This document shows positions 9,441 to 22,173 of a stretch of 53,460 bases of DNA, piece after piece. The stretch is from a virus: IMG/VR virus record IMGVR_UViG_3300032224_000722, positions 1 to 53,460 of that record; one strand, written 5' to 3'. The position numbers were made by a program, and so were the translations under genes. How positions within the stretch are numbered: the first letter of the stretch is position 1; each line of letters starts with the position of its first letter. A model generated the notes under the pieces. The model worked only from the letters and a program-made list of their open reading frames with translations. It ran no database searches and was not told the DNA's origin.

Positions 9441-9776
9441 ATGAGACCATTATGTAAAACATGCGGTAAAAGGCCAGTGGCAATCAATTACCACAAAGAC
9501 GATAGAGTATTTTATCGCAAAACTTGCGATCATTGTGCCAGACATAGAGATGTAGGAAGGCCTAAGTGGCAACAGGCTGGCTACAGAAAGAAAGATAAAT
9601 GCGACCGCTGTGGATACACCAGCAAACACCCAGAACAGTTTGATGTATACTACATCGACGGGGAGCCGTCAAACACTAAGCTGGCAAATCTAAAAACGGT
9701 ATGTTCGAACTGCCAGCGGATCCTGCATATTTTGAAGCTACCTTGGAAACGGGGTGATTTGACACCAGATTTTTAA
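9441..9776 (+). CDS. Four-CxxC HNH-like zinc protein, probably non-catalytic
   Basis: This 111-aa protein belongs to a type conserved beside the tail genes of aquatic T4-like phages. Four CxxC pairs (C5/C8, C29/C32, C54/C57, C88/C91) should bind two zincs. The segment YYIDGEPSNTKLANLKTVC followed by SNCQ has the layout of an HNH endonuclease core (usually HHIDG...N...NL...C..CH). Here Tyr replaces the first His and Gln the last, so nuclease activity is doubtful and DNA or RNA binding more likely. The SD is AAGGG, 7 nt before the ATG. It is the only plus-strand gene in this stretch, and its last 101 nt overlap the 3' end of the minus-strand dNMP kinase. A regulatory role is speculation. Confidence 0.85.
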   Translation: MRPLCKTCGKRPVAINYHKDDRVFYRKTCDHCARHRDVGRPKWQQAGYRKKDKCDRCGYTSKHPEQFDVYYIDGEPSNTKLANLKTVCSNCQRILHILKLPWKRGDLTPDF

Positions 9777-10389
9777 CCTGGGCAAATAAGTCGTCTATAC
9801 TACCGTTGTTGTCTAAAACGGCATCAAACTCTGTTCCGACCCAAGCAGTTTCGCTGGCATGTATTTTATGCTTGTCTAGTTCTGCTTTGCCCAAAGCCCA
9901 AGAGGTATTGCGCACAGGACCTCGATTAAAGTTTATGGCGGCTTCGTACCATTCAGGTTCGGCGCCACGTACTACTCGTACTACAATTCCGCCAGCAGTT
10001 TTAATTGATTTAATTTCGTTTGGAAATCTGCAATCGCTAATAACAATGTCGTCAGTACTATTACGGAGTTTGTTTTCTAGACTGGCAATCCAAATATCAT
10101 CATGAAATGATTTACGGCACACTTCTGTGCCCCAATATTGTAACACCCAGCGTGGAGTAAGGTTGGGCATGCCAAGTCGTTCTGCCCACCACGGATCTAC
10201 TTGTTCACGCCACTCACGTGCTGATTTAGTGCGGCCTTCGAGCATGGTTCGGTCCCAGCCAAACACAGACGATACTGCATCTTTAAGACTGTTGGCAAAA
10301 CTTTCTCGCCTAAATTCGTGGAAATTTGTTAGATAGTCGGCAATAGTATCTTTGCCGGACCCGATAAAACCGCACACACCAATAATCAT
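9676..10389 (-). CDS. gp1: Deoxynucleoside monophosphate kinase (T4 gp1-like)
   Basis: This enzyme phosphorylates dNMPs, supplying nucleotides for phage DNA synthesis. The 237 aa (T4 gp1 is 241) begin with a P-loop, GFIGSGKDT (residues 7-15), followed by the lid/substrate part: FRRESFANSLKDAVSSVFGW, LTPRWVLQYWGTEVCR and DDIVISDCRFPNEI, all typical of phage dNMP kinases. The C-terminal 33 residues (SNHPVSKVASKYAGSAGSSN and on) are encoded opposite the plus-strand zinc-protein gene. The start has an SD-like TAGGGGA in the loop of a small hairpin and a sigma-70-like promoter upstream, consistent with earlier expression than the surrounding late genes (inference). Confidence 0.9.
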   Translation of the reverse strand: MIIGVCGFIGSGKDTIADYLTNFHEFRRESFANSLKDAVSSVFGWDRTMLEGRTKSAREWREQVDPWWAERLGMPNLTPRWVLQYWGTEVCRKSFHDDIWIASLENKLRNSTDDIVISDCRFPNEIKSIKTAGGIVVRVVRGAEPEWYEAAINFNRGPVRNTSWALGKAELDKHKIHASETAWVGTEFDAVLDNNGSIDDLFAQVKNLVSNHPVSKVASKYAGSAGSSNIPFLDLPA

Positions 10390-12491: not shown

Positions 12492-13984
12492 TGGATCATT
12501 TTTACGACGGGCAAATACGACGCTACCTAACTCAGTTTATGAGAGTTATGAGCAACTTCTCATACAAAGATGCAAAAGGCAACTTGGTACAGATTCCTGT
12601 ACGCTACGGAGATATGAGCAGACAAGTGGCGCAAATACTCACAAAGAATTCTGAGAACACGATGCCATCGGCTCCGTTTATCAGTTGTTATATTAAGAAT
12701 TTAAAAATTGCTCGTGAACGATTACAAAACCCGTATTACGAAAACACGCTCAATGTTAGAGAGCGAGAAACACACTATGTTGATGAAAATCCCAGCAGTC
12801 CGACATACGGTGAAACTATAAATGAACAGGGCAACTTACAAGGTGGCAATTATACCATTAATCGTTTAATGCCTACACCATATGATTTAGAATTTCAAGC
12901 AGATATTTGGAGTTCAAATACTGATCAAAAATTACAGATCCTTGAACAAATATTAGTATTGTTCCGCCCTGCATTAGAAATTCAAACCACAAGCAACTTT
13001 GTTGACTGGACGAGTTTAAGTTATTTAGAATTATCTGATATGACTTGGTCGACTCGGGCTATTCCTCAAGGTGTAGAACAAGATATTGATATTGCTAATT
13101 TAGGATTTACTGCGCCAATTTGGATCAGTACTCCTGTTAAGGTAAAACAACTAGGCATTATTACAGATATTATTGCAAGTATATTTGTAGAACCAACTGG
13201 CACATTAAGCGAAAGCAAATACGACGATGGCGCATTCTTTAATGGACGTACACCTACTGCTATTGCAGGACACAACTTGAAAGATCATAATATTGTGGTA
13301 ATGGATAACACCGCAACATTAGGACCTGGAGTGAGTTGGTATAAAATTCTTGATGCTTATCCTGGTACATTTACTGCCGGATTAAGTCAAATTAGATTTA
13401 CAAAAGATCTAAGCACAGAAGTTGTTGCTACAATAACACTAAATCCAATTGATGAAACGCAGATGATTTTAAATATCGATGCATCTACATTACCTACTAA
13501 CAGCCAAGTACCTGCAAACAGTGGTAAAACTTATGTCGATGCTATTATAGATCCTACCAAATTTACAACTGATATCAACAACGTAGGTATTCGTTATCTA
13601 ATCTTAGAAGATATCAATCCTGCGTACAGACAAGTTCAATACATTGCAAATCCGGGATATGATTCTAATGACCCTGCTAGCCCCCAACAGCTGGTCAAGT
13701 TAGATGCAAATGGAAATCCTGTTTACATTAAACAATATCCGGATGCAGGTTATGCAGTGACTAATTTTAAAAATGCAGATAATTCAATATTTTCAGCAAA
13801 TGTAAATGACATTATTACTTGGGACGGCGAAAAATGGGTAGTTATATTCGACTCTTTAGCCGGGGTTACTCCTACTTACATAACTAATATACGTACTGGT
13901 TCACAATACGTATGGGACGGTGAACAATGGACTTCTAGTTATGAAGGCGAGTACAAACCAGGATATTGGCGTTTATTGTTATGA
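12491..13984 (+). CDS. gp15: Tail sheath stabiliser and completion protein gp15
   Basis: gp15 caps the finished tail and connects it to the neck. The N-terminal part (about residues 1-235) is the recognisable domain: MDHFYDGQIRRYLTQFMRVM, LVQIPVRYGDMSRQVAQIL, APFISCYIKNLKIARERLQ, then MPTPYDLEFQADIWSSNTDQ and QILEQILVLFRPALEIQTT, parallel to T4 gp15. The 497 aa greatly exceed the 272 aa of T4. The added C-terminal half contains WDGEKWVVIF and VWDGEQWTSSYEGEYKPGYW, aromatic DG-x-x-W elements shared with gp14 and the sheath insertion. The start overlaps the gp14 stop (TAATG); the stop overlaps the Nudix start (ATGA). Confidence 0.9.
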   Translation: MDHFYDGQIRRYLTQFMRVMSNFSYKDAKGNLVQIPVRYGDMSRQVAQILTKNSENTMPSAPFISCYIKNLKIARERLQNPYYENTLNVRERETHYVDENPSSPTYGETINEQGNLQGGNYTINRLMPTPYDLEFQADIWSSNTDQKLQILEQILVLFRPALEIQTTSNFVDWTSLSYLELSDMTWSTRAIPQGVEQDIDIANLGFTAPIWISTPVKVKQLGIITDIIASIFVEPTGTLSESKYDDGAFFNGRTPTAIAGHNLKDHNIVVMDNTATLGPGVSWYKILDAYPGTFTAGLSQIRFTKDLSTEVVATITLNPIDETQMILNIDASTLPTNSQVPANSGKTYVDAIIDPTKFTTDINNVGIRYLILEDINPAYRQVQYIANPGYDSNDPASPQQLVKLDANGNPVYIKQYPDAGYAVTNFKNADNSIFSANVNDIITWDGEKWVVIFDSLAGVTPTYITNIRTGSQYVWDGEQWTSSYEGEYKPGYWRLLL

Positions 13985-14406
13985 GTATAATTTGTAGTGG
14001 TGGAATTTTTTTAAGTAAGTCAACAAAGCGATTTTTATTGCTAAACAGAACAGAAGGCAAAACTGCAAACACGTGGGGTATCGTCGGCGGTAAACACGAA
14101 CCTAACGATCAAACTCCTTACGAAGCACTATGTAGGGAAATCCAAGAAGAAATTGGATTCCTACCGTCTATAGAAAAAACAATTCCTTTAGAACAATACG
14201 AAAGTAAAGATGGGGAATTTTATTACCATACCTACGTATTGTTAGTTGAGGACGAGTTTATTCCTAAACTAAATCATGAACACTCGGGGTACGCTTGGGT
14301 ATCTAAAGACAGTTGGCCTAAGCCCTTGCATTCTGGACTTAGGACCACACTGGGTAATAAAACTAACAGAGTAAAAATTGAAACTATTTTTGATGTGATA
14401 GGTTAA
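13981..14406 (+). CDS. Nudix (MutT-type) hydrolase
   Basis: This is a pyrophosphohydrolase acting on nucleoside-diphosphate-linked substrates; the exact substrate is unknown. I use ATG 13981 (141 aa), inside the gp15 stop (ATGA overlap). The Nudix box is GGKHEPNDQTPYEALCREIQ followed by EEIGF; REIQEEIGF (residues 52-60) supplies the metal-binding glutamates E53, E56 and E57. Between GGK and the RE there is one residue more than the usual G-x5-E-x7-REUxEE spacing, and the first conserved Glu is Asp/Gln. The N-terminal SIICSGGIFLSKSTKRFLLL is the usual first strand. Placing a Nudix enzyme in a neck-gene operon is unusual. Its stop shares the TTAA with the stop of the convergent oxygenase gene. 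Confidence 0.88.
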   Translation: MSIICSGGIFLSKSTKRFLLLNRTEGKTANTWGIVGGKHEPNDQTPYEALCREIQEEIGFLPSIEKTIPLEQYESKDGEFYYHTYVLLVEDEFIPKLNHEHSGYAWVSKDSWPKPLHSGLRTTLGNKTNRVKIETIFDVIG

Positions 14407-14993
14407 ATGTCAGTAGCTATTAAATTAAAGCTAATGCTAATTCTATCTTCGTCTGATAAGTTTTCTTCCACACCGTGATCTAACCAGCTTGGAAAAGCTA
14501 TGAATAGTCCCGGTACGGGTTGAAAACTATAACTCTTGTAATTGGCATCTACATCTTTAGCACTATAGAAATGCTGTCGTGCCGCAAGATTAGGATTAAT
14601 AAATGTTATCTTACCAGAGCGTGGTGGCGTTTTAATATATAGGGTACAGGCTAATACACTACGAGGATGTAAATGCGGGATCATGTATGCCCCGGGCGAA
14701 TTTACATTTACCCAGTAATTTAATAATGTCAACGGCGTAACAGATTCGTAGTCCTTGACTAGCATACCAGTACATTTTTCAATTATAGGCATTAGTACAG
14801 GATGGGCAATAGTAAGAACTTTGCTACTGCCACCTCCGCCACGCTTACTTGAAATATCTAGATTTGGCTGAGTTTTAACCATCTCTCTCGAAAATCTTTC
14901 TAATTCTGCAATATCTTCATCAGAGATTTCATTTGTAATAGTCCACACCGGCGTGGGGAAAATATTACTTAATTTAAGTTCAGATCCAGCCAA
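14403..14993 (-). CDS. 2OG-Fe(II) oxygenase-like protein
   Basis: The 196 aa resemble the phage 2OG-Fe(II) oxygenase family with the conserved opener LKLSNIFPTPVW. The double-stranded beta-helix core shows IPHLHPRSVLACTLYIKTPP (H107 and H109 as candidate iron ligands), FIAFPSWLDHGVEENLSDED (H173) and R184 in RISISFN, which would bind 2-oxoglutarate. A glycine run (RGGGGSSK, 51-58) lies in the N-terminal third. Such proteins hydroxylate or otherwise oxidise proteins, nucleic acids or small molecules; the target here is unknown. The start is TTG at 14993 and overlaps the upstream gene by 14 nt, so translation is probably coupled. It is the last gene of the adhesin/halogenase operon and converges with the Nudix gene. 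Confidence 0.85.
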   Translation of the reverse strand: MAGSELKLSNIFPTPVWTITNEISDEDIAELERFSREMVKTQPNLDISSKRGGGGSSKVLTIAHPVLMPIIEKCTGMLVKDYESVTPLTLLNYWVNVNSPGAYMIPHLHPRSVLACTLYIKTPPRSGKITFINPNLAARQHFYSAKDVDANYKSYSFQPVPGLFIAFPSWLDHGVEENLSDEDRISISFNLIATDI

Positions 14994-15642
14994 GTTGTTT
15001 TACCTGTAATGGAGTTGTACAGTCATTAACTGCTTTCTTTTCAGCCATCATTTCGCCTAACAAGGTTGCTTGTTGAGCTTGGAATGCCGCATTCTTAGCA
15101 AGGGCTTGGCTAGCTAACTCTCCAACACTAATACCGCTAGCCGCTGATAATGCAGATAACAATGGAGTTGGATAGTTAGGATTTGCTTGGACAGCCTGTG
15201 ATTCTTCTAACTGTTGTTGATGAGTACTTGCTTCTAACTTACTAGTCATGCTTCTCATGTTAGAAAATTTAACATCAAACTCGGCTTGAATTTCTAAGCA
15301 AGATAGATACTTATATCCTTTTAAGAATAAGTCAATATCTTCAGCAGAAGTTAAAGTAGGAAAGTGATGCATATGACCTTCAGCGATACTTTCTGGGTTA
15401 TGATCTGCAACAGTAGTAACAAGTGCAACACAACCGTCGTCTAGGACAGTATAGTTGATATGTGCAAACTCTGCAATTACTTGCGGATCAGTTAACTGTA
15501 CAATTTTATATTTTGCAATTTGATCTGCATTAAAATTTACAATAGGAAGATCTAACACTAACCAACCGTGAGTAGTGTATTTTGTATCTGGAGGTAGTTG
15601 GAATGTAAGTGGTTGATTCCAATCAATTTTCATTAAAAGCAT
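14980..15642 (-). CDS. Unknown protein in the halogenase-oxygenase cassette (220 aa)
   Basis: I do not recognise this family. Residues 1-115 look folded: strands MKIDWNQPLTFQLP, HGWLVLDLPIVNF, YTVLDDGCVALVTTVAD, then a His-rich AEGHMHHFPT and FLKGYKYLSCLEI. Residues 120-215 are helical and Ala/Gln-rich (ASTHQQQLEESQAVQA, ASQALAKNAAFQAQQATLL). SD AAGGT lies 10 nt before ATG 15642; a second ATG at 15633 is possible. The 3' end overlaps the oxygenase by 14 nt. Its place in the operon suggests a fibre-assembly or modification partner; HMHH could bind metal, which is speculation. Confidence 0.78.
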   Translation of the reverse strand: MLLMKIDWNQPLTFQLPPDTKYTTHGWLVLDLPIVNFNADQIAKYKIVQLTDPQVIAEFAHINYTVLDDGCVALVTTVADHNPESIAEGHMHHFPTLTSAEDIDLFLKGYKYLSCLEIQAEFDVKFSNMRSMTSKLEASTHQQQLEESQAVQANPNYPTPLLSALSAASGISVGELASQALAKNAAFQAQQATLLGEMMAEKKAVNDCTTPLQVKQLGWI

Positions 15643-15668
15643 GTTAGTAGGGACCTTGCTAAAAAGCG

Positions 15669-16355
15669 TTATTGTGCTGACCTTGCAATTTTGTCCTGTG
15701 TACCGTCTTGATTAAACTTGATCAATGTTTCTTGATCTTGTGCTGATCCTAACTGTGGTACTGGAATATATGCGGCCATTTCATTTGTAATCTTCAATGC
15801 TTCTTGTAGTGTTACATGGAAGATCTCTTCTGGTAAGTCCATCATCGCTTGCAGGTTACCTGTAGAAATTCTACCTGTAGATACAATATCTAATCCTGCT
15901 TGACGACCTAGACGTTTGACCCAGTAATCAATTTCGAGAGTATCTTTCATAGATAGCATCTCACCGATATCAAAATTATCATTGAAGTACTGTAATACTT
16001 CGTAAAAAGTAACCAATTCGTTTTTGATACGTTTAACTTCTTTTACATTTAAGTAAATCTTTTCTTCTACTTGATGGATTTCTAAATCAATTTCCATCTG
16101 ATATAAAGGATCAGTTTCACGCTCGCGCTTCTTTTTCAAGATTTCAATCTTAAGCTGATTCTTTTTATCTTCATATTCTGCTTTACGTAAATTTTCTTCA
16201 CGTACTTCTGATTCCATCACAACTTGTTGCAGTTGTTTAACGGGTGTAAGCTGTGAGTTAATAACAAACTGCTTCATTTGGAAGTCACTCATACCACGGG
16301 GTAGAGCTTCTACTAAATCAGCTATTTGCCAAACTTTCTTTTCTGTTGATTCCAT
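15669..16355 (-). CDS. Coiled-coil protein of unknown function (228 aa)
   Basis: I recognise no family. Residues about 35-125 form a strongly charged helix (EVREENLRKAEYEDKKNQ, LKIEILKKKRERETD, then EKIYLNVKEVKRIKNELV) that should make a long coiled coil. Helical segments on either side are YFNDNFDIGEMLSMKDTL and DLPEEIFHVTLQEALKITNE. It has SD AAGGAT with good spacing, and its start lies inside the halogenase gene (38-nt overlap). A scaffold or chaperone for the neighbouring enzymes or fibres would fit the shape and context, but nothing in the sequence proves it. Confidence 0.8.
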   Translation of the reverse strand: MESTEKKVWQIADLVEALPRGMSDFQMKQFVINSQLTPVKQLQQVVMESEVREENLRKAEYEDKKNQLKIEILKKKRERETDPLYQMEIDLEIHQVEEKIYLNVKEVKRIKNELVTFYEVLQYFNDNFDIGEMLSMKDTLEIDYWVKRLGRQAGLDIVSTGRISTGNLQAMMDLPEEIFHVTLQEALKITNEMAAYIPVPQLGSAQDQETLIKFNQDGTQDKIARSAQ

Positions 16356-17685
16356 TTTTAATCCTTATCTCTGTTATGTGCTTGTAATGATTTGGTAATG
16401 TTTTTTGTGCAAGATAAACTTGTACTTTAGCATCCTGTGTTACCTTAGGATAATAATGAGCTTCACCAAACCCCCTTAGCAATTCGTTCCATTGAAAATA
16501 AGGATAACCGTTATCGAGGTTATCTTCCTTCGTTGGATATTTATATTTAAGAGAACGCCAAAAATCCTGGAAGTCTTTTGAGTTACGGGCGGCTTCGCTT
16601 GCCGCTACCCAAAACGGCTCTTTTCTCTTGCTAAAGGCATAATGACTCAACACCACAACTTTAATATAGCGTATTTTTTCCTGTATTTCTGCGTTTGCCC
16701 ATGCATGGGTTTTGCGCCCTGTAATAACTTCAACGGCATATTCAATAGTTTTACCTGCTAAATGGATCGCTGTGGCTTCTAATGGTTCTATGAACCCGCT
16801 ACTCATACCCGCCGCAATAATATTACCTTTAATGATCTCTTTATAATAGCCAGGACTCATTGTGATCTTTCTAGGATTTTCAATGCCTGTTGCTTTGGTA
16901 AACTCTGTTCTAGCGTCTTCATCGTTAATAAACTGACTACTGTAGATGTATCCGTTACCAGTTCTTTCGTAGACTGGGATTTTAAAGCGCCACCCTGCTG
17001 TCATCCCTATACTAGATGTAAACGGCTCGTACTCTTTTTCTGGGTTCGTATAAGATTTTTGTCCTACTATTGCTGTATCTACTAATAGTTCATCGCTGTA
17101 ACTACAAAATTCGCTGTCTGTTTTGCTGATCAGTAAGCGACGGAATCCCGAGCAGTCAACGAACCAGTCTGCAACTACAGTGGTGCCGTTATCTAAGGTG
17201 ACGCTTTTACAAGTATTTCCGTCCATCTCAACTTCTGTTATCTCTGCGTGAGTTAGTGTAACACCCTTTTCTGTACTACGTGCTTGTAACAAATTAGCAA
17301 GCTCTGTCGCTACAAAGTGACATCCGTGCATACTGTTTTCGTGTAACCAAGGGCACTTATTATTATTGCCAACAGCCGCGGCTAAATCACTACCCCACAT
17401 TTCCCAGTCCGGGTCAGTTGATAACCAAAAAGGTTTTTCAGCAAAGTCGATAAATTTGATTCCTAATTTGACGCCGCCACCCGTGAGTGCAACTAACTCT
17501 GTGGCTTTAATACCTAGGTCGTTTAGCATTTTCATAATGCTAGGCCACGTTCCTTCACCTACGCCAATGGTGGGAATGTTTGGACTTTCAATTAAATGAA
17601 TTTGATAATTTGGAAACTTGTTAATAAGATAAGCGGCGGAAAGCCAACCAGCTGTCCCACCGCCCACGATGCATATTGTCGTCAT
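16318..17685 (-). CDS. Flavin-dependent (tryptophan-type) halogenase
   Basis: This is an FADH2-dependent halogenase of the PrnA/tryptophan halogenase family, which makes HOX at flavin and delivers it through an active-site Lys. I choose ATG 17685 (455 aa) because TTICIVGGGTAGWLSA gives the FAD GxGxxG fold at once. GVGEGTWPSIMKMLNDLGI is the family motif, K73 (in GGGVKLGIKF) matches the catalytic Lys79 of PrnA, and GFIEPLEATAIH (E300/E303) matches the region of Glu346. The WxWxIP signature is WRFKIP here (second Trp to Phe). PrnA has about 538 aa, so this is shorter. Related genes occur in marine cyanophages. It starts 11 nt after the propeller gene and overlaps the coiled-coil gene by 38 nt. 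The substrate is unknown. Confidence 0.92.
   Translation of the reverse strand: MTTICIVGGGTAGWLSAAYLINKFPNYQIHLIESPNIPTIGVGEGTWPSIMKMLNDLGIKATELVALTGGGVKLGIKFIDFAEKPFWLSTDPDWEMWGSDLAAAVGNNNKCPWLHENSMHGCHFVATELANLLQARSTEKGVTLTHAEITEVEMDGNTCKSVTLDNGTTVVADWFVDCSGFRRLLISKTDSEFCSYSDELLVDTAIVGQKSYTNPEKEYEPFTSSIGMTAGWRFKIPVYERTGNGYIYSSQFINDEDARTEFTKATGIENPRKITMSPGYYKEIIKGNIIAAGMSSGFIEPLEATAIHLAGKTIEYAVEVITGRKTHAWANAEIQEKIRYIKVVVLSHYAFSKRKEPFWVAASEAARNSKDFQDFWRSLKYKYPTKEDNLDNGYPYFQWNELLRGFGEAHYYPKVTQDAKVQVYLAQKTLPNHYKHITEIRIKNGINRKESLANS
16538..16545 (-). promoter_or_regulatory. TATAAATA inside the halogenase gene
   Basis: An exact T4 late core on the minus strand lies in the 3' part of the halogenase gene, about 180 nt before the coiled-coil gene start. 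It encodes Lys-Tyr-Lys-Tyr codons, so it may be coincidence, but it could provide extra late transcripts of the three downstream genes. Confidence 0.25.
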
Positions 17686-17696
17686 AAACCTACTTA

Positions 17697-18809
17697 TTAA
17701 GGTAGTGGACCGTAACAAGCACTTCCTGAAGATTGATTACGCTGACTATATACTGAGCCCAATACTTGGTGACTATCCGAAGGATAATATGTTTTAACAG
17801 AAACGTTATTTTGTGCGCCGTTATATCCTGCGATAAAGTAACCGTAGTCTTGTCCCATAACTGCACATTGCTCGCCGTTGTTATACTGTTGGCTAGGTGA
17901 ACTCGACCAGCTTTCGCTTGCAACGTTAAATCTTGACATAGCGGATGAAGCGTTTGGATTCATGTACCACTTGTAGTATTTTGTTGGCATCGCTTTACCA
18001 GCTTGACCGCCACCGAACGGAGCTTCACCTGTAGTTGCACCGGATGCTGTCATTGTGGAATAGTTCCATCTGTATGGACCACTTTGGCCTGGAGTAAAGT
18101 TATACCCGTAATTGTTTTCTGCAGGAACACCAGCACCATAGGAGTGCGAACCTGGAGTTGCATAACCAACACCCCAGCTGTTTGTTGTATAGTTAATATA
18201 GTTTCCTGTACCACCAATTTGGATCATACCGTATTGGTTATTAGCACCAGTTTTAGTACCATTATGCCAAGAGTTAGGTGAGTAAGAACCTGTTGGACGA
18301 TTTGAAATCGTTGTAAGCGTCCATGATGCCCAGTCTTGTATGTTTGCTTGAACGCTTGAGTTACCTTGGTGGTGATATGCGTACCACTCTGAACTATGCC
18401 ATCCACCATAATAATTTGTAAAGGACAATGTTTGTGGTTGTTCTAGAGCAACGTCACAACTGTGATGTACACGTAAAATTTGTGACCAAATACTTCCGCC
18501 TACATAACCACCAGATACGCAACCTTGTTGTAATACGATTTCGTTTTTATAATCGTTTGGTTTAGCTACAAACTTGTACCACGCATAGTAAGCCTGAGAG
18601 CCGCCTGATGAAATTGGAACGTAGGTGTTACCGGCAGGGCCAGTTGATGGATATCTGTTAGTTGAAAATACAAATTCGTTAATATCACTAACATATCCGA
18701 TATAACCCGGGGTTGCAGTCGCACTTAAATTAGTACGAGCAGTATACTTTGCAGGAATAATGTTTCCTGTGTTATCAATAACTAATAGTCCGTTGCTGTA
18801 AATTGCCAT
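17697..18809 (-). CDS. Kelch-like propeller adhesin (370 aa)
   Basis: The N-terminus (MAIYSNGLLVIDNTGNIIPA) is a fibre-type attachment segment. From about residue 120 come four or more degenerate blade-like repeats rich in Trp, Tyr, Gly and Asn: NQYGMIQIGGTGNYINYTTN, NNYGYNFTPGQSGPYRWNYS, YKWYMNPNASSAMSRFNVAS and QDYGYFIAGYNGAQNNVSVK. Each has the pattern Y-G-x(n)-N/S-x-Y/F-x-W-like of Kelch/galactose-oxidase-type propellers, which bind glycans. SD AAGGAA lies well before the ATG, with an AATAAATA box above it. It is followed after 11 nt by the halogenase. A receptor-binding role is inferred from composition and neighbours. Confidence 0.72.
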   Translation of the reverse strand: MAIYSNGLLVIDNTGNIIPAKYTARTNLSATATPGYIGYVSDINEFVFSTNRYPSTGPAGNTYVPISSGGSQAYYAWYKFVAKPNDYKNEIVLQQGCVSGGYVGGSIWSQILRVHHSCDVALEQPQTLSFTNYYGGWHSSEWYAYHHQGNSSVQANIQDWASWTLTTISNRPTGSYSPNSWHNGTKTGANNQYGMIQIGGTGNYINYTTNSWGVGYATPGSHSYGAGVPAENNYGYNFTPGQSGPYRWNYSTMTASGATTGEAPFGGGQAGKAMPTKYYKWYMNPNASSAMSRFNVASESWSSSPSQQYNNGEQCAVMGQDYGYFIAGYNGAQNNVSVKTYYPSDSHQVLGSVYSQRNQSSGSACYGPLP

Positions 18810-18832: not shown

Positions 18833-21496
18833 TTATTTATTAAGCAGTTGGGTTACCAACGCTTTTAATTCGTCAATTTGCGCCTGTTGCGCTTGTATTG
18901 TATGCTCGTGTTCTTTGATAGCATTAACTAATAGTGGAACCACGCGATCATACTGTGCTGTTAGATAGTTTTCGCCTGATTTAGACTTAGATTCTGTTTT
19001 TAGATTCTCATCTTGATCAAATGGTGCCGGAACTACAACTTCTGGAATTACTAGATTAAGTTTCTGAGCACTTAAACCAAGTTTTCTGCGGTTGCCGACT
19101 ACTCCTAATGATTTTGCAATTTCGTTATCATAGTAGTAGAACCCCTCTAATTGCATTACTTTTGCAACTGCATCAGTAATAGGTCCTTCGATAATTTTTA
19201 ATCGTTCGTCTGACGTTGCAGAATATACGTCGCCGACAACATAAAGCGTACCACCGCAAGTTGAGTTGTTACTATCTAGTTGCCAGTACCATGGCCATTG
19301 ACCGTTAACCTGCGTCCATGCACCTGATCCTGCATCTGCGCCGGCACGTAGGACATATAACCTGTTGCTATTGTTGTGTAGATATGCGTTATTTTCGTCT
19401 GTATCACGGAAGTGGATTGTTGGAGCACCAGTTCTAATACCAATGTCGCCACCGGTACCGCTAGAACCGTTGTTAATATAAATGTTGTATGCTTGGTTAC
19501 CAGTGAATGTATGTGTACCAGTTGCGCTTACGTTACCGTTCGATGACGTTAAAGTCCAGTTGTCGCCGGTTCCGCTGTTCGAAATAAAGTTGTATGATTG
19601 ATCAACACGGAATCTATACCCGCTTGCCGTATTGCTACCATCGCCCCAACGCTGTAAGTTGATAGAACCCGATCCTGGACCTACTTGTAGTACTGCGCCA
19701 CCGCCTTCTATCGCGTTAGTTGTACCAACACCAAATCCAGCTGTACCAGCATAAAATCTTCCACCTGTGCCGCCCGCTGTATTGCCTGTTACAGTCAGCT
19801 TGCCGCCGGTTGGGTCAAATATCAAGTGACTAGAGTCAATATAGTCAGTTGTAATATTACCGCTAGTTGCGTTGGTAAACATTGGATAATAACCAGTACC
19901 AGTAGCAACGTTAGTAACGCTAGCCGCGGCCGGAGCCCACTGGATTCCGGAACCAGTTGTTTGTAAGAAGTATCCGTTAGTACCTGCAGTTGGGGTTGCA
20001 CCTGCATATAGCGCACCACTTAGTAATAAACCAGATGCTATACTTGCGCCTCCACTAACTACCAGCGAACCCGAACCTGCTGTTGCGCTCGCCGCCGTTG
20101 TTGCACTAATAGTTACGTTACCGTTAGCATCAATAAAGATACGTTGGGTGCCTGCGCCGTTAGCGATAACAATCTGACCGTTGGCACTAACTGTACCACC
20201 ACTGTTGTTACCAAGAATAACACAGTTGTCGTAGCCCAGTGCATTACCTGCATTGTAACCAATTAATACGTTGTTATTATTTGTTGAAATCGTTGAACCA
20301 GCGCCAAATCCAATTGCAGTATTGTTAATGCCGCTTGCCATCAATAGCAATGCGTTTGTACCGATAGCAGTATTACCACCGGTGACTAATGAACCTGAAC
20401 CTAACGCACGATAACCGATAGCAGTATTATTTTGTACGCTGGCGCCTGAGGCCGCAGATAACGCTGAGGTTCCTATACCTGTATTGTTTGAACCAGCTAC
20501 AATTAGCTGACCTGCAACGTTACCAACGAACGTATTGTTACCACCTGTAGTTACACCGTTACCTGAATTGTATCCTAAGAATGTGTTTGCCGTGCCGCCC
20601 GTTGTTAAACTTGCGCCTGATGAGTTACCGACTACAGTATTTGTTGTGCTGGCTAAGTTACCTTGTCCGATGCGTACTGAGTTAAAATAACTGTCTGCAC
20701 CTGCCCAGTGTGCGCCACCGGAACTAATACCACCATAGGTTGTAATAGCACCAGTTGATGTACTGGTTGCCGCTGTTGATTGTGGAATGACAATTTGATT
20801 GTATAACACATTCAATGAGTTGTATTGTGTAGCTACAGCACCCGCACTTTGGCTTGCGGCCGATACTAAGAATTTAAATCCGTTTGAATCTTGTAATTGA
20901 ATTTGACCGTTGAAGCCGGTGCCCATTACAGTATATGCAGAACCGTCTAGAGTATAGCTGTTAAAACCAATTCCACGATAAGAACCAGTTTGAAGTGCAA
21001 GACCAGTTAATGAGTTAGTGGTAAGATATGCCGCAACGTTTGTAGTTGTATTAACTGATAGGCCGTACGTGCTGGCCGCGCCGCCGACTGCTAGGTTAGC
21101 ACTTAGGTTAAACGATCCACCAATGTTCAAGTTACCACTGATGCCTACACCACCCAAAACCTGTAGTGACCCTGTACCTGTAGTTGTTGACTGTGTATTG
21201 CCGCCAACTGTGACATAACCCTGATATGGTGCTAGTTGTATTTGCCCTGTGCTGTTTACTGTGATACTTGGAATACCGCTAACGTCGTTGACTTGGAAAA
21301 ACTGTCCAGTCATACCATCACCGATGGTGTGTACCTGTCCCGCCGTTGCTTCCCAACTCAATGTACCAGCATCTAGCACACGGGCATACAAGGTCGCAGA
21401 TGAGCTTGCGCTACCGCCCTGGTACGCAACTATAGGCTCGGCTGTGCCAGAACCTATGTTTGGGGTTATTAAAATGTTACGATTACTGTATGCCAT
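18833..21496 (-). CDS. Tail fibre with C-terminal S74 self-cleaving chaperone (887 aa)
   Basis: This is a trimeric fibre protein. Residues 1-130 contain a head region and one TGTGSLQVLGGVGISGNLNI module of the type seen in the giant fibres. Residues about 279-435 are YadA-like head repeats (NTAIGYRALGSG, NTAIGFGAGSTI, NNVLIGYNAGNA), forming a left-handed beta-roll. The C-terminal 126 residues are an intramolecular chaperone autocleaving domain (peptidase S74): the catalytic Ser762 in SDERLKIIEG, then RKLGLSAQKLNLVIPEVVV, and a terminal coiled coil rich in Gln and Leu (EHTIQAQQAQIDELKALV). The chaperone is cut off after trimer assembly. It starts 23 nt after the LamG gene, with no clear SD but a GGTAAATA box. 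Confidence 0.92.
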   Translation of the reverse strand: MAYSNRNILITPNIGSGTAEPIVAYQGGSASSSATLYARVLDAGTLSWEATAGQVHTIGDGMTGQFFQVNDVSGIPSITVNSTGQIQLAPYQGYVTVGGNTQSTTTGTGSLQVLGGVGISGNLNIGGSFNLSANLAVGGAASTYGLSVNTTTNVAAYLTTNSLTGLALQTGSYRGIGFNSYTLDGSAYTVMGTGFNGQIQLQDSNGFKFLVSAASQSAGAVATQYNSLNVLYNQIVIPQSTAATSTSTGAITTYGGISSGGAHWAGADSYFNSVRIGQGNLASTTNTVVGNSSGASLTTGGTANTFLGYNSGNGVTTGGNNTFVGNVAGQLIVAGSNNTGIGTSALSAASGASVQNNTAIGYRALGSGSLVTGGNTAIGTNALLLMASGINNTAIGFGAGSTISTNNNNVLIGYNAGNALGYDNCVILGNNSGGTVSANGQIVIANGAGTQRIFIDANGNVTISATTAASATAGSGSLVVSGGASIASGLLLSGALYAGATPTAGTNGYFLQTTGSGIQWAPAAASVTNVATGTGYYPMFTNATSGNITTDYIDSSHLIFDPTGGKLTVTGNTAGGTGGRFYAGTAGFGVGTTNAIEGGGAVLQVGPGSGSINLQRWGDGSNTASGYRFRVDQSYNFISNSGTGDNWTLTSSNGNVSATGTHTFTGNQAYNIYINNGSSGTGGDIGIRTGAPTIHFRDTDENNAYLHNNSNRLYVLRAGADAGSGAWTQVNGQWPWYWQLDSNNSTCGGTLYVVGDVYSATSDERLKIIEGPITDAVAKVMQLEGFYYYDNEIAKSLGVVGNRRKLGLSAQKLNLVIPEVVVPAPFDQDENLKTESKSKSGENYLTAQYDRVVPLLVNAIKEHEHTIQAQQAQIDELKALVTQLLNK
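18834..18841 (-). promoter_or_regulatory. Late-promoter-like box before the propeller gene
   Basis: AATAAATA on the minus strand (7 of 8 to the T4 late core), 24 nt before the propeller ATG, with an SD (AAGGAA) in between. It overlaps the stop codon of the S74 fibre gene. Confidence 0.4.
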
Positions 21497-21519: not shown

Positions 21520-22173
21520 TTATAGTCCGTATCTGCCCTTGAGTGCAACATAAGATGCACGTACTTGGGATGCAGATAAGGCAGTATTCCAGAAAAGTGT
21601 AGGTCCAATTAGACCGTTGCACGGTCCTGATTGTACACCAACTTGGAATGTAGCATTATTACTTGATGGGCCACTTACAGTTCCCGAGTTATCTAATACT
21701 CCATTATAATAAAGACTACTTACCGCAGTACTACCGCCAGATGCTACTCCGGCAAATGTGCCAGTCCAACAATGCCAAGTGTTTAATGGTATTGTTGCGT
21801 TTGAATATAAATCTCCACCTGTACCGTATGTTTGCCAACGCATCTGTGTCAAGTTACCTGCGTATAAGTTAACGCTGTTAGAACCAGATACATAGTTAAA
21901 GAAACCGCCAGTTCTACTGTTTAAATTTAAAAACTGCATAACAGTAAACCCTGTTGAAAGATTTAAGTTATAACTTGCGCCGCTAACAATAGCACCAGCA
22001 GTGGCATTACTAAAACTAGCACTGGCATAGGTAATTGATGATAATGTTGCCGGTTGATTGTCTATTAGATTATAAGCAGTACTACCCGATCCGCTATAAC
22101 TTTTACTGTTATACGGATCTAGATAATATGCTAGATTTGTTAAGGGAATCTGTGGTCCGAATGTTGATGCCAT
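21520..22173 (-). CDS. LamG/concanavalin-like lectin protein (217 aa)
   Basis: This is a single jelly-roll lectin domain protein, probably a virion-bound glycan binder. The signature of phage LamG proteins is present: LTNLAYYLDPYNSKSYSGSG (conserved YLD near the start), GFTVMQFLNLNSRTGGFF, IPLNTWHCWTGTFAG (the NTWH..TGT strand), SLYYNGVLDNSG and the closing IGPTLFWNTALSASQVRASY then LKGRYGL, typical of the Laminin_G_3-type fold. SD AAAGGAT lies before the ATG, which comes 3 nt after the stop of the 4519-aa gene, so it is coupled to the giant fibre. Alternatively it is a soluble accessory adhesin. Confidence 0.85.
   Translation of the reverse strand: MASTFGPQIPLTNLAYYLDPYNSKSYSGSGSTAYNLIDNQPATLSSITYASASFSNATAGAIVSGASYNLNLSTGFTVMQFLNLNSRTGGFFNYVSGSNSVNLYAGNLTQMRWQTYGTGGDLYSNATIPLNTWHCWTGTFAGVASGGSTAVSSLYYNGVLDNSGTVSGPSSNNATFQVGVQSGPCNGLIGPTLFWNTALSASQVRASYVALKGRYGL

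Follow-up and report, generated by a model that had tools for sequence, protein, structure and literature searches.

What does a phage do with a halogenase? Halogenases are already known in phages, and the literature searched gave no physiological substrate for any viral one. We addressed the question in IMGVR_UViG_3300032224_000722, a linear IMG/VR virus record of 53,460 bases, analyzed at full length and called the window below. Here a halogenase gene directly follows an adhesin gene and precedes two further fibre-module genes and a 2-oxoglutarate (2OG)-Fe(II) oxygenase gene. This halogenase/2OG cassette in the fibre module is real and conserved, and its arrangement suggests, short of proof, that in some phages the adhesins may be modified chemically by the phage's own enzymes. 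The recurrence of halogenases at fibre modules, including the locus of the cyanophage halogenase VirX1, makes virion adhesins a candidate, testable halogenase substrate.

Two predicted oxidative enzymes in a fibre module

The genes of the operon are given in the order of their predicted transcription, with lengths in amino acids (aa) and E-values of profile matches.

21520–22173, minus strand: LamG/concanavalin-like adhesin (PF13385, 4.5e-14)
18833–21496, minus strand: tail fibre with Peptidase_S74 intramolecular chaperone (PF13884, 1e-6; tail fibre phrogs)
17697–18809, minus strand: Tyr/Trp-rich adhesin, 370 aa, probable Kelch-like propeller (phrog_1417, 8e-11; GC351 counterpart)
16318–17685, minus strand: predicted flavin-dependent (tryptophan-type) halogenase, 455 aa (PF04820, 3.2e-83; phrog_2928, 1.6e-91)
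15669–16355, minus strand: coiled-coil fibre-module protein p1409 (phrog_1409, 2.1e-36; cyanophage T4-GC353)
14980–15642, minus strand: fibre-module protein p1604 (phrog_1604, 9e-16; cyanophage T4-GC352)
14403–14993, minus strand: predicted 2OG-Fe(II) oxygenase, 196 aa (PF13759, 9.7e-22; phrog_81, 3.4e-40)

The halogenase gene starts with ATG at 17685, 11 nucleotides (nt) after the adhesin stop, and ends with its own stop at 16318. It shares 38 nt with the coiled-coil open reading frame (ORF, 16355–15669), which a 26-nt gap separates from the p1604 ORF (15642–14980); the latter shares 14 nt with the 2OG ORF (14993–14403). On recheck, a preliminary description of this DNA proved exact in its coordinates, the 11-nt gap and the two overlaps, and correct in calling K73, FIEPLE and GGGTAG of the halogenase intact. 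It also named a propeller adhesin. The adhesin stands and occupies the place of GC351 as in P-SSM4; the Kelch matches that point to a propeller are weak (E from 4e-4 to 5e-3). The WxWxIP motif reads GWRFKIP in the window enzyme.

The halogenase scores 280.5 bits against the PF04820 profile (cut-off 21). PF04820 also matches in several control genomes, and therefore the catalytic residues matter for the assignment. The FAD motif GxGxxG reads GGGTAG, FIEPLE is present, and K73 and E303 correspond to PrnA residues K79 and E346; in our alignment of phage halogenases the catalytic Lys occurs in 84 of 84 sequences and the Glu in 81 of 84. A PDB search with the window protein returned halogenases including VirX1 (1.9e-40). 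Similarity to LodB and QhpG was dismissed, being far under the cut-offs and explained by the shared FAD fold. By these sequence features we assign the protein as a flavin-dependent, tryptophan-type halogenase with intact catalytic residues. In place of the second W of GWxWxIP it has F, as do 22 of the 84 phage halogenases. Its lid regions are short: the stretch from K73 to the HF motif is 30–40 residues shorter than in VirX1 and most others, and 153 residues follow E303 versus 177 in VirX1. In free-tryptophan halogenases (PrnA, RebH, Thal) a C-terminal helical lid encloses the tryptophan; VirX1 has no such lid, and its wide pocket has been ascribed to this absence (PMC7948982). By analogy, the window enzyme probably has an open pocket, and its short regions together with the VirX1 precedent make a substrate larger than free tryptophan plausible.

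The 2OG protein scores 77.7 bits against PF13759 (cut-off 27), exceeds the cut-off of TIGR02466 and matches PDB 3bvc/2rg4 at 8e-11. The motifs HLHPR and LDHGVEEN..RIS are conserved across the homologues printed, and the TTG start codon of the window gene is shared by all window-clade homologues printed. With a score above the profile cut-off and the HxH ... H and Arg residues in place, the protein is assigned to PF13759. The phrog_274 label 'DNA endonuclease V' also sits on proteins that match 2OG families (for example, L061:6330-6953 and the S-SSM7 'denV', SSSM7_124), and is probably a propagated annotation error.

Conservation of the cassette and recurrence at fibre modules

Fifteen further viral contigs encode a halogenase 69–89% identical to that of the window, in the same gene order as far as the contigs extend; some come from the same population, and together they hold about eight distinct halogenase sequences. 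Most run on into the NUDIX, sheath stabiliser, structural protein and Ad2 genes. In the contigs L113–L116, whose coiled-coil protein is only 47–50% identical to that of the window, adhesins are followed by the halogenase, coiled-coil, p1604 and 2OG genes in the same order and with the overlaps kept. The ratio of nonsynonymous to synonymous substitutions (dN/dS) is 0.06–0.09 for the halogenase, 0.06–0.08 for the 2OG oxygenase and 0.17–0.23 for p1604, the fastest gene of the cassette, all ratios being approximate at dS >0.8. All cassette genes are under purifying selection. Because the order is kept in the 15 contigs and in L113–L116, the overlaps persist and dN/dS is about 0.06–0.23, the cassette is not a chance arrangement.

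The two middle genes belong to known phage families. p1409 aligned with homologues from P-SSM4, P-HM2, Syn19, S-RIM14 and S-CAM4, p1604 was aligned with its family as well, and hidden Markov model matches to T4-GC352/353 in five cyanophages range from 1e-13 to 1e-27. In the Kyanoviridae module T4-GC351-352-353 of P-SSM4, Syn19 and P-HM2, with counterparts in S-RIM14 and S-CAM4, the adhesin GC351 is followed by the same two adjacent partner families as in the window; unlike in the window, no halogenase lies between them, the order of GC352 and GC353 is reversed and GC354 comes next. Among 80 loci fetched via the coiled-coil protein, the p1409/p1604 pair is nearly always adjacent and usually lacks a halogenase, which occurs within three genes in 5 of 23 p1409 modules (reduced at 70% identity). 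Because the pair is present after the adhesin in many halogenase-free phages, we assign both proteins to the fibre module, where homology and adjacency mark them as old adhesin partners; the halogenase and 2OG oxygenase are additions to this module. The idea that the pair helps the two enzymes was dropped, since it occurs without them.

AlphaFold (AF2) models of p1409, a long alpha-hairpin, and of p1604 have mean predicted local distance difference test (pLDDT) values of 87 and 89, respectively. PDB sequence and fold searches with the two proteins gave no significant match. A Foldseek search of BFVD with the p1604 model found the P-HM2 homologue (6e-9) and, weakly, DUF4376 proteins (E 0.04–0.5), which in Alteromonas phages are described as tail-fibre chaperones (PMC10579305, PMC7289586). 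The term 'chaperone-like' would thus fit p1604 by a weak analogy to the DUF4376 fold, not by membership.

Halogenases occur at fibre modules in several layouts: adhesin-halogenase-p1409-p1604-2OG in the window clade and L113–L116, three adhesins-p1409-p1604-halogenase in L118–L120, and p1604-p1409-2OG-halogenase-2OG in L168. In the halogenase tree the window clade of eight has a Shimodaira-Hasegawa-like approximate likelihood ratio (SH-aLRT) support of 100, and L118 groups with an L035 halogenase (96). L168 is placed elsewhere and Syn10/VirX1 elsewhere again; many deeper forks are weak. Judged by this tree, halogenases joined fibre modules at no fewer than four positions (window clade, L118, L168 and Syn10/VirX1).

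VirX1, a viral halogenase with known crystal structure and biochemistry, is CPUG_00131 of Syn10 (L183:8508-10100), all 530 residues of which align with PDB 6QGM; the GenBank record of Syn10 labels the gene 'hypothetical protein'. Upstream of the Syn10 halogenases lie one tail-fibre gene, several fibre-like ones, two tail-fibre genes of phrog_863 and one small gene. The VirX1 gene shares 11 nt with the other Syn10 halogenase gene, which precedes it, and three 2OG-superfamily genes follow within 5 kb. Both VirX1 and the window enzyme match PF04820 with intact Lys/Glu, stand behind tail-fibre genes and have 2OG genes around them. Unlike VirX1, the window halogenase has 455 rather than 530 aa, F at the second W of WxWxIP and a gene overlapping a T4-GC353 homologue, and it branches apart. 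The gene context of VirX1, found in a cultured phage, points independently to halogenase-fibre coupling. Tandem halogenases are found in comparable places in S-RIM44, P-TIM40 and P-RSM6, where fibre calls come from annotation, gene sizes and position. No description of the coupling was found in the literature searched, which did not extend to the VirX1 primary paper.

2OG genes accompany halogenases beyond the window type. Around 65 halogenase clusters (window type and shortest ORFs omitted), 146 genes lie one or two places off; 24 of these match 2OG-FeII_Oxy_5 and 20 match 2OG-FeII_Oxy_3 (about 30% in total, with overlap possible), and 33 of the 65 clusters have a 2OG gene at most two places away; multi-halogenase arrays weigh heavily in these counts, which are therefore not independent. 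Among p1409 modules, a 2OG gene is present in 4 of 5 with a halogenase versus 4 of 18 without (Fisher 0.03, kinship ignored). Since most cyanophages have up to five 2OG genes per genome (Sullivan et al. 2010), such a gene should rarely fall beside a halogenase by chance. Halogenase arrays with as many as six divergent members, interspersed with 2OG genes, span ∼15 kb in L041, L061, L066, L083, L088, L099, L100, L101, G009 and G010, and some adjoin the NUDIX and sheath-stabiliser genes also present in the window. Beside the NUDIX gene and array of L041 are genes that by eye resemble GroES and GroEL (L041:601-2565).

The preliminary description had proposed a joint task for these genes, such as halogenating and hydroxylating virion adhesins or altering the host surface or small molecules, and suggested testing the five-gene order in related phages. 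That order is kept in the 15 contigs and L113–L116, and the coupling of halogenase and 2OG oxygenase to adhesins is conserved and recurring, the VirX1 locus included. The coiled-coil and 'unknown' proteins are T4-GC353 and T4-GC352 and fall outside the oxidative set, occurring also without a halogenase.

In G001, the window's closest relative, a second halogenase (L181:11671-12939) is part of a long operon (L180:10240 to L181:18025) that also encodes nine radical S-adenosylmethionine (SAM) proteins, sulfotransferases, epimerases, a GT2 and 2OG enzymes; this operon looks like surface-glycan or natural-product chemistry. DUF401 membrane proteins, which are transporter-like, occur near fibres with or without a halogenase (L115:9905-10942, L118:13448-14449, L129–L131, L136). 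They were rejected as halogenase partners on account of the halogenase-free modules.

Adhesins as candidate substrates and competing explanations

The best single explanation, to which we give a probability of about 0.4, is that both enzymes act on the adhesins of this phage and modify their side chains. The cassette would be a fibre-maturation module in which the adhesin, p1604 and p1409 form the fibre part, with p1604 and p1409 as possible assembly partners or chaperones. The halogenase would take FADH2 from a host flavin reductase, O2 and halide to produce hypohalous acid and, while the fibre is being assembled, place Cl, Br or I on exposed Tyr/Trp (possibly His) of the adhesin. Other residues of the same fibre would be hydroxylated by the 2OG oxygenase, and the changed surface could affect receptor binding, stability or evasion of recognition. 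We hold slightly more tentatively the wider proposal that phages gained, on several occasions, a fibre-operon-encoded system dedicated to the post-translational modification of receptor-binding proteins, and that its halogenated and hydroxylated tail-fibre adhesins would include the natural substrate of VirX1. If adhesin modification is true, halogenated phage structural proteins would add a new kind of chemistry to the virion, with a bearing on receptor binding, on phage stability and on halogen chemistry in aquatic settings, and biocatalysis would gain halogenases that act on whole proteins.

In favour of adhesin modification, the related halogenases SrpI and MibH halogenate Trp of ribosomal peptides. 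They are of the same enzyme class, but what they modify are small precursor peptides encoded in natural-product clusters, not the virion proteins proposed here. Adhesins contain 8.4% Tyr in modules with a halogenase versus 5.3% without (6 versus 7 representatives, Mann-Whitney 0.002), in a post hoc comparison whose six halogenase-side adhesins represent two or three lineages. Trp is 3.1 versus 2.1 (p 0.035), and the control proteins p1409 and p1604 show no such Tyr/Trp difference. Adhesin residues Y36, Y145, Y282, Y324 and Y342 vary little or not at all and are hardly ever replaced by Phe. In L035 (875-4318), paralogous Tyr/Trp/His-rich proteins of ∼170 aa stand directly before halogenase-2OG-halogenase and are probably fibre-tip-like variants; a PDB search with one of them was uninformative.

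Several points weigh on the other side. The Tyr comparison has the post hoc character and narrow lineage base just given, and Kelch propellers use Tyr/Trp structurally. Membership of p1604 in DUF4376 was rejected, as 0 of 35 members match the Pfam family. VirX1 accepts small molecules in vitro, and we know of no modified virion peptide. Many phage halogenases map outside fibre modules, to DNA-metabolism or tRNA regions (S-B64, S-PM2, P-SSM2) or to biosynthetic-looking clusters (S-SSM7, L181), and the majority of fibre modules have none. Several roles are thus probable for phage halogenases, and our claim is limited to the fibre-module type.

It is possible, if doubtful, that during infection the two enzymes synthesise or modify a small molecule or surface sugar (an antibiotic, a signal or a capsule decoration) and that their fibre location is incidental. 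Secondary-metabolite or capsule chemistry was proposed for the S-SSM6a halogenase cluster (Iyer et al. 2021, PMC7824862), the S-SSM7 halogenase sits among carbamoyltransferase and sugar genes, the second G001 halogenase clusters with radical SAM, sulfotransferase, epimerase and glycosyltransferase genes, and VirX1 halogenates many small aromatics. The S-SSM6a/S-SSM7 clusters resemble the window in combining a phage halogenase with 2OG enzymes. However, profile searches of the window cassette and its neighbours found none of the S-SSM6a-type carbamoyltransferase or sugar-modifying genes, and the cassette, conserved as adhesin, two partners and two enzymes, has no sugar, carbamoyl or peptide-synthesis gene.

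The boundary between fibre and neck genes could instead be a cargo hot spot, where the two enzymes do unrelated jobs and share only a late promoter. Differing halogenase/2OG sets at the NUDIX/sheath-stabiliser locus of the divergent L035, L066, L083 and L089, the varying insertion points of halogenases within the module and the abundance of 2OG genes in cyanophages agree with this. Hot-spot cargo usually turns over, whereas here the same cassette and overlaps are kept down to about 49% coiled-coil identity; this long conservation of the whole cassette, besides the recurrence at four tree positions and the low dN/dS, makes mere cargo less likely. Least probable is that the enzymes, made when the late genes are expressed, change surface proteins or receptors of the host, for instance to block superinfection. 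Surface-changing gene clusters have been proposed in cyanophages, and a DUF401 membrane protein, or an outer-membrane-barrel protein in L116, adjoins some cassettes; yet the halogenase and 2OG sequences give no hint of export (no signal-peptide predictor was used), and DUF401 is found in halogenase-free modules too.

The tail module of the window

The window holds the tail module of a large myovirus, with genes for the sheath, tube, head closure, Ad2 adaptor, sheath stabiliser and several fibre proteins, and a 4,519-aa protein that includes a baseplate-wedge part. The nearest matches of the sheath are in PA5oct-type and other jumbo phages (∼40–46% identity). A scan of GTDB genomes for the host or for bacterial relatives of the window halogenase gave none. 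From the LamG adhesin through the 2OG oxygenase, the genes share one strand and either overlap or are no more than 26 nt apart, and are therefore probably co-transcribed; a search for promoters and terminators turned up fewer sites than shuffles did. A deoxynucleoside monophosphate kinase (9676-10389) and a NUDIX hydrolase (13966-14406) lie within the conserved structural block and are retained in relatives.

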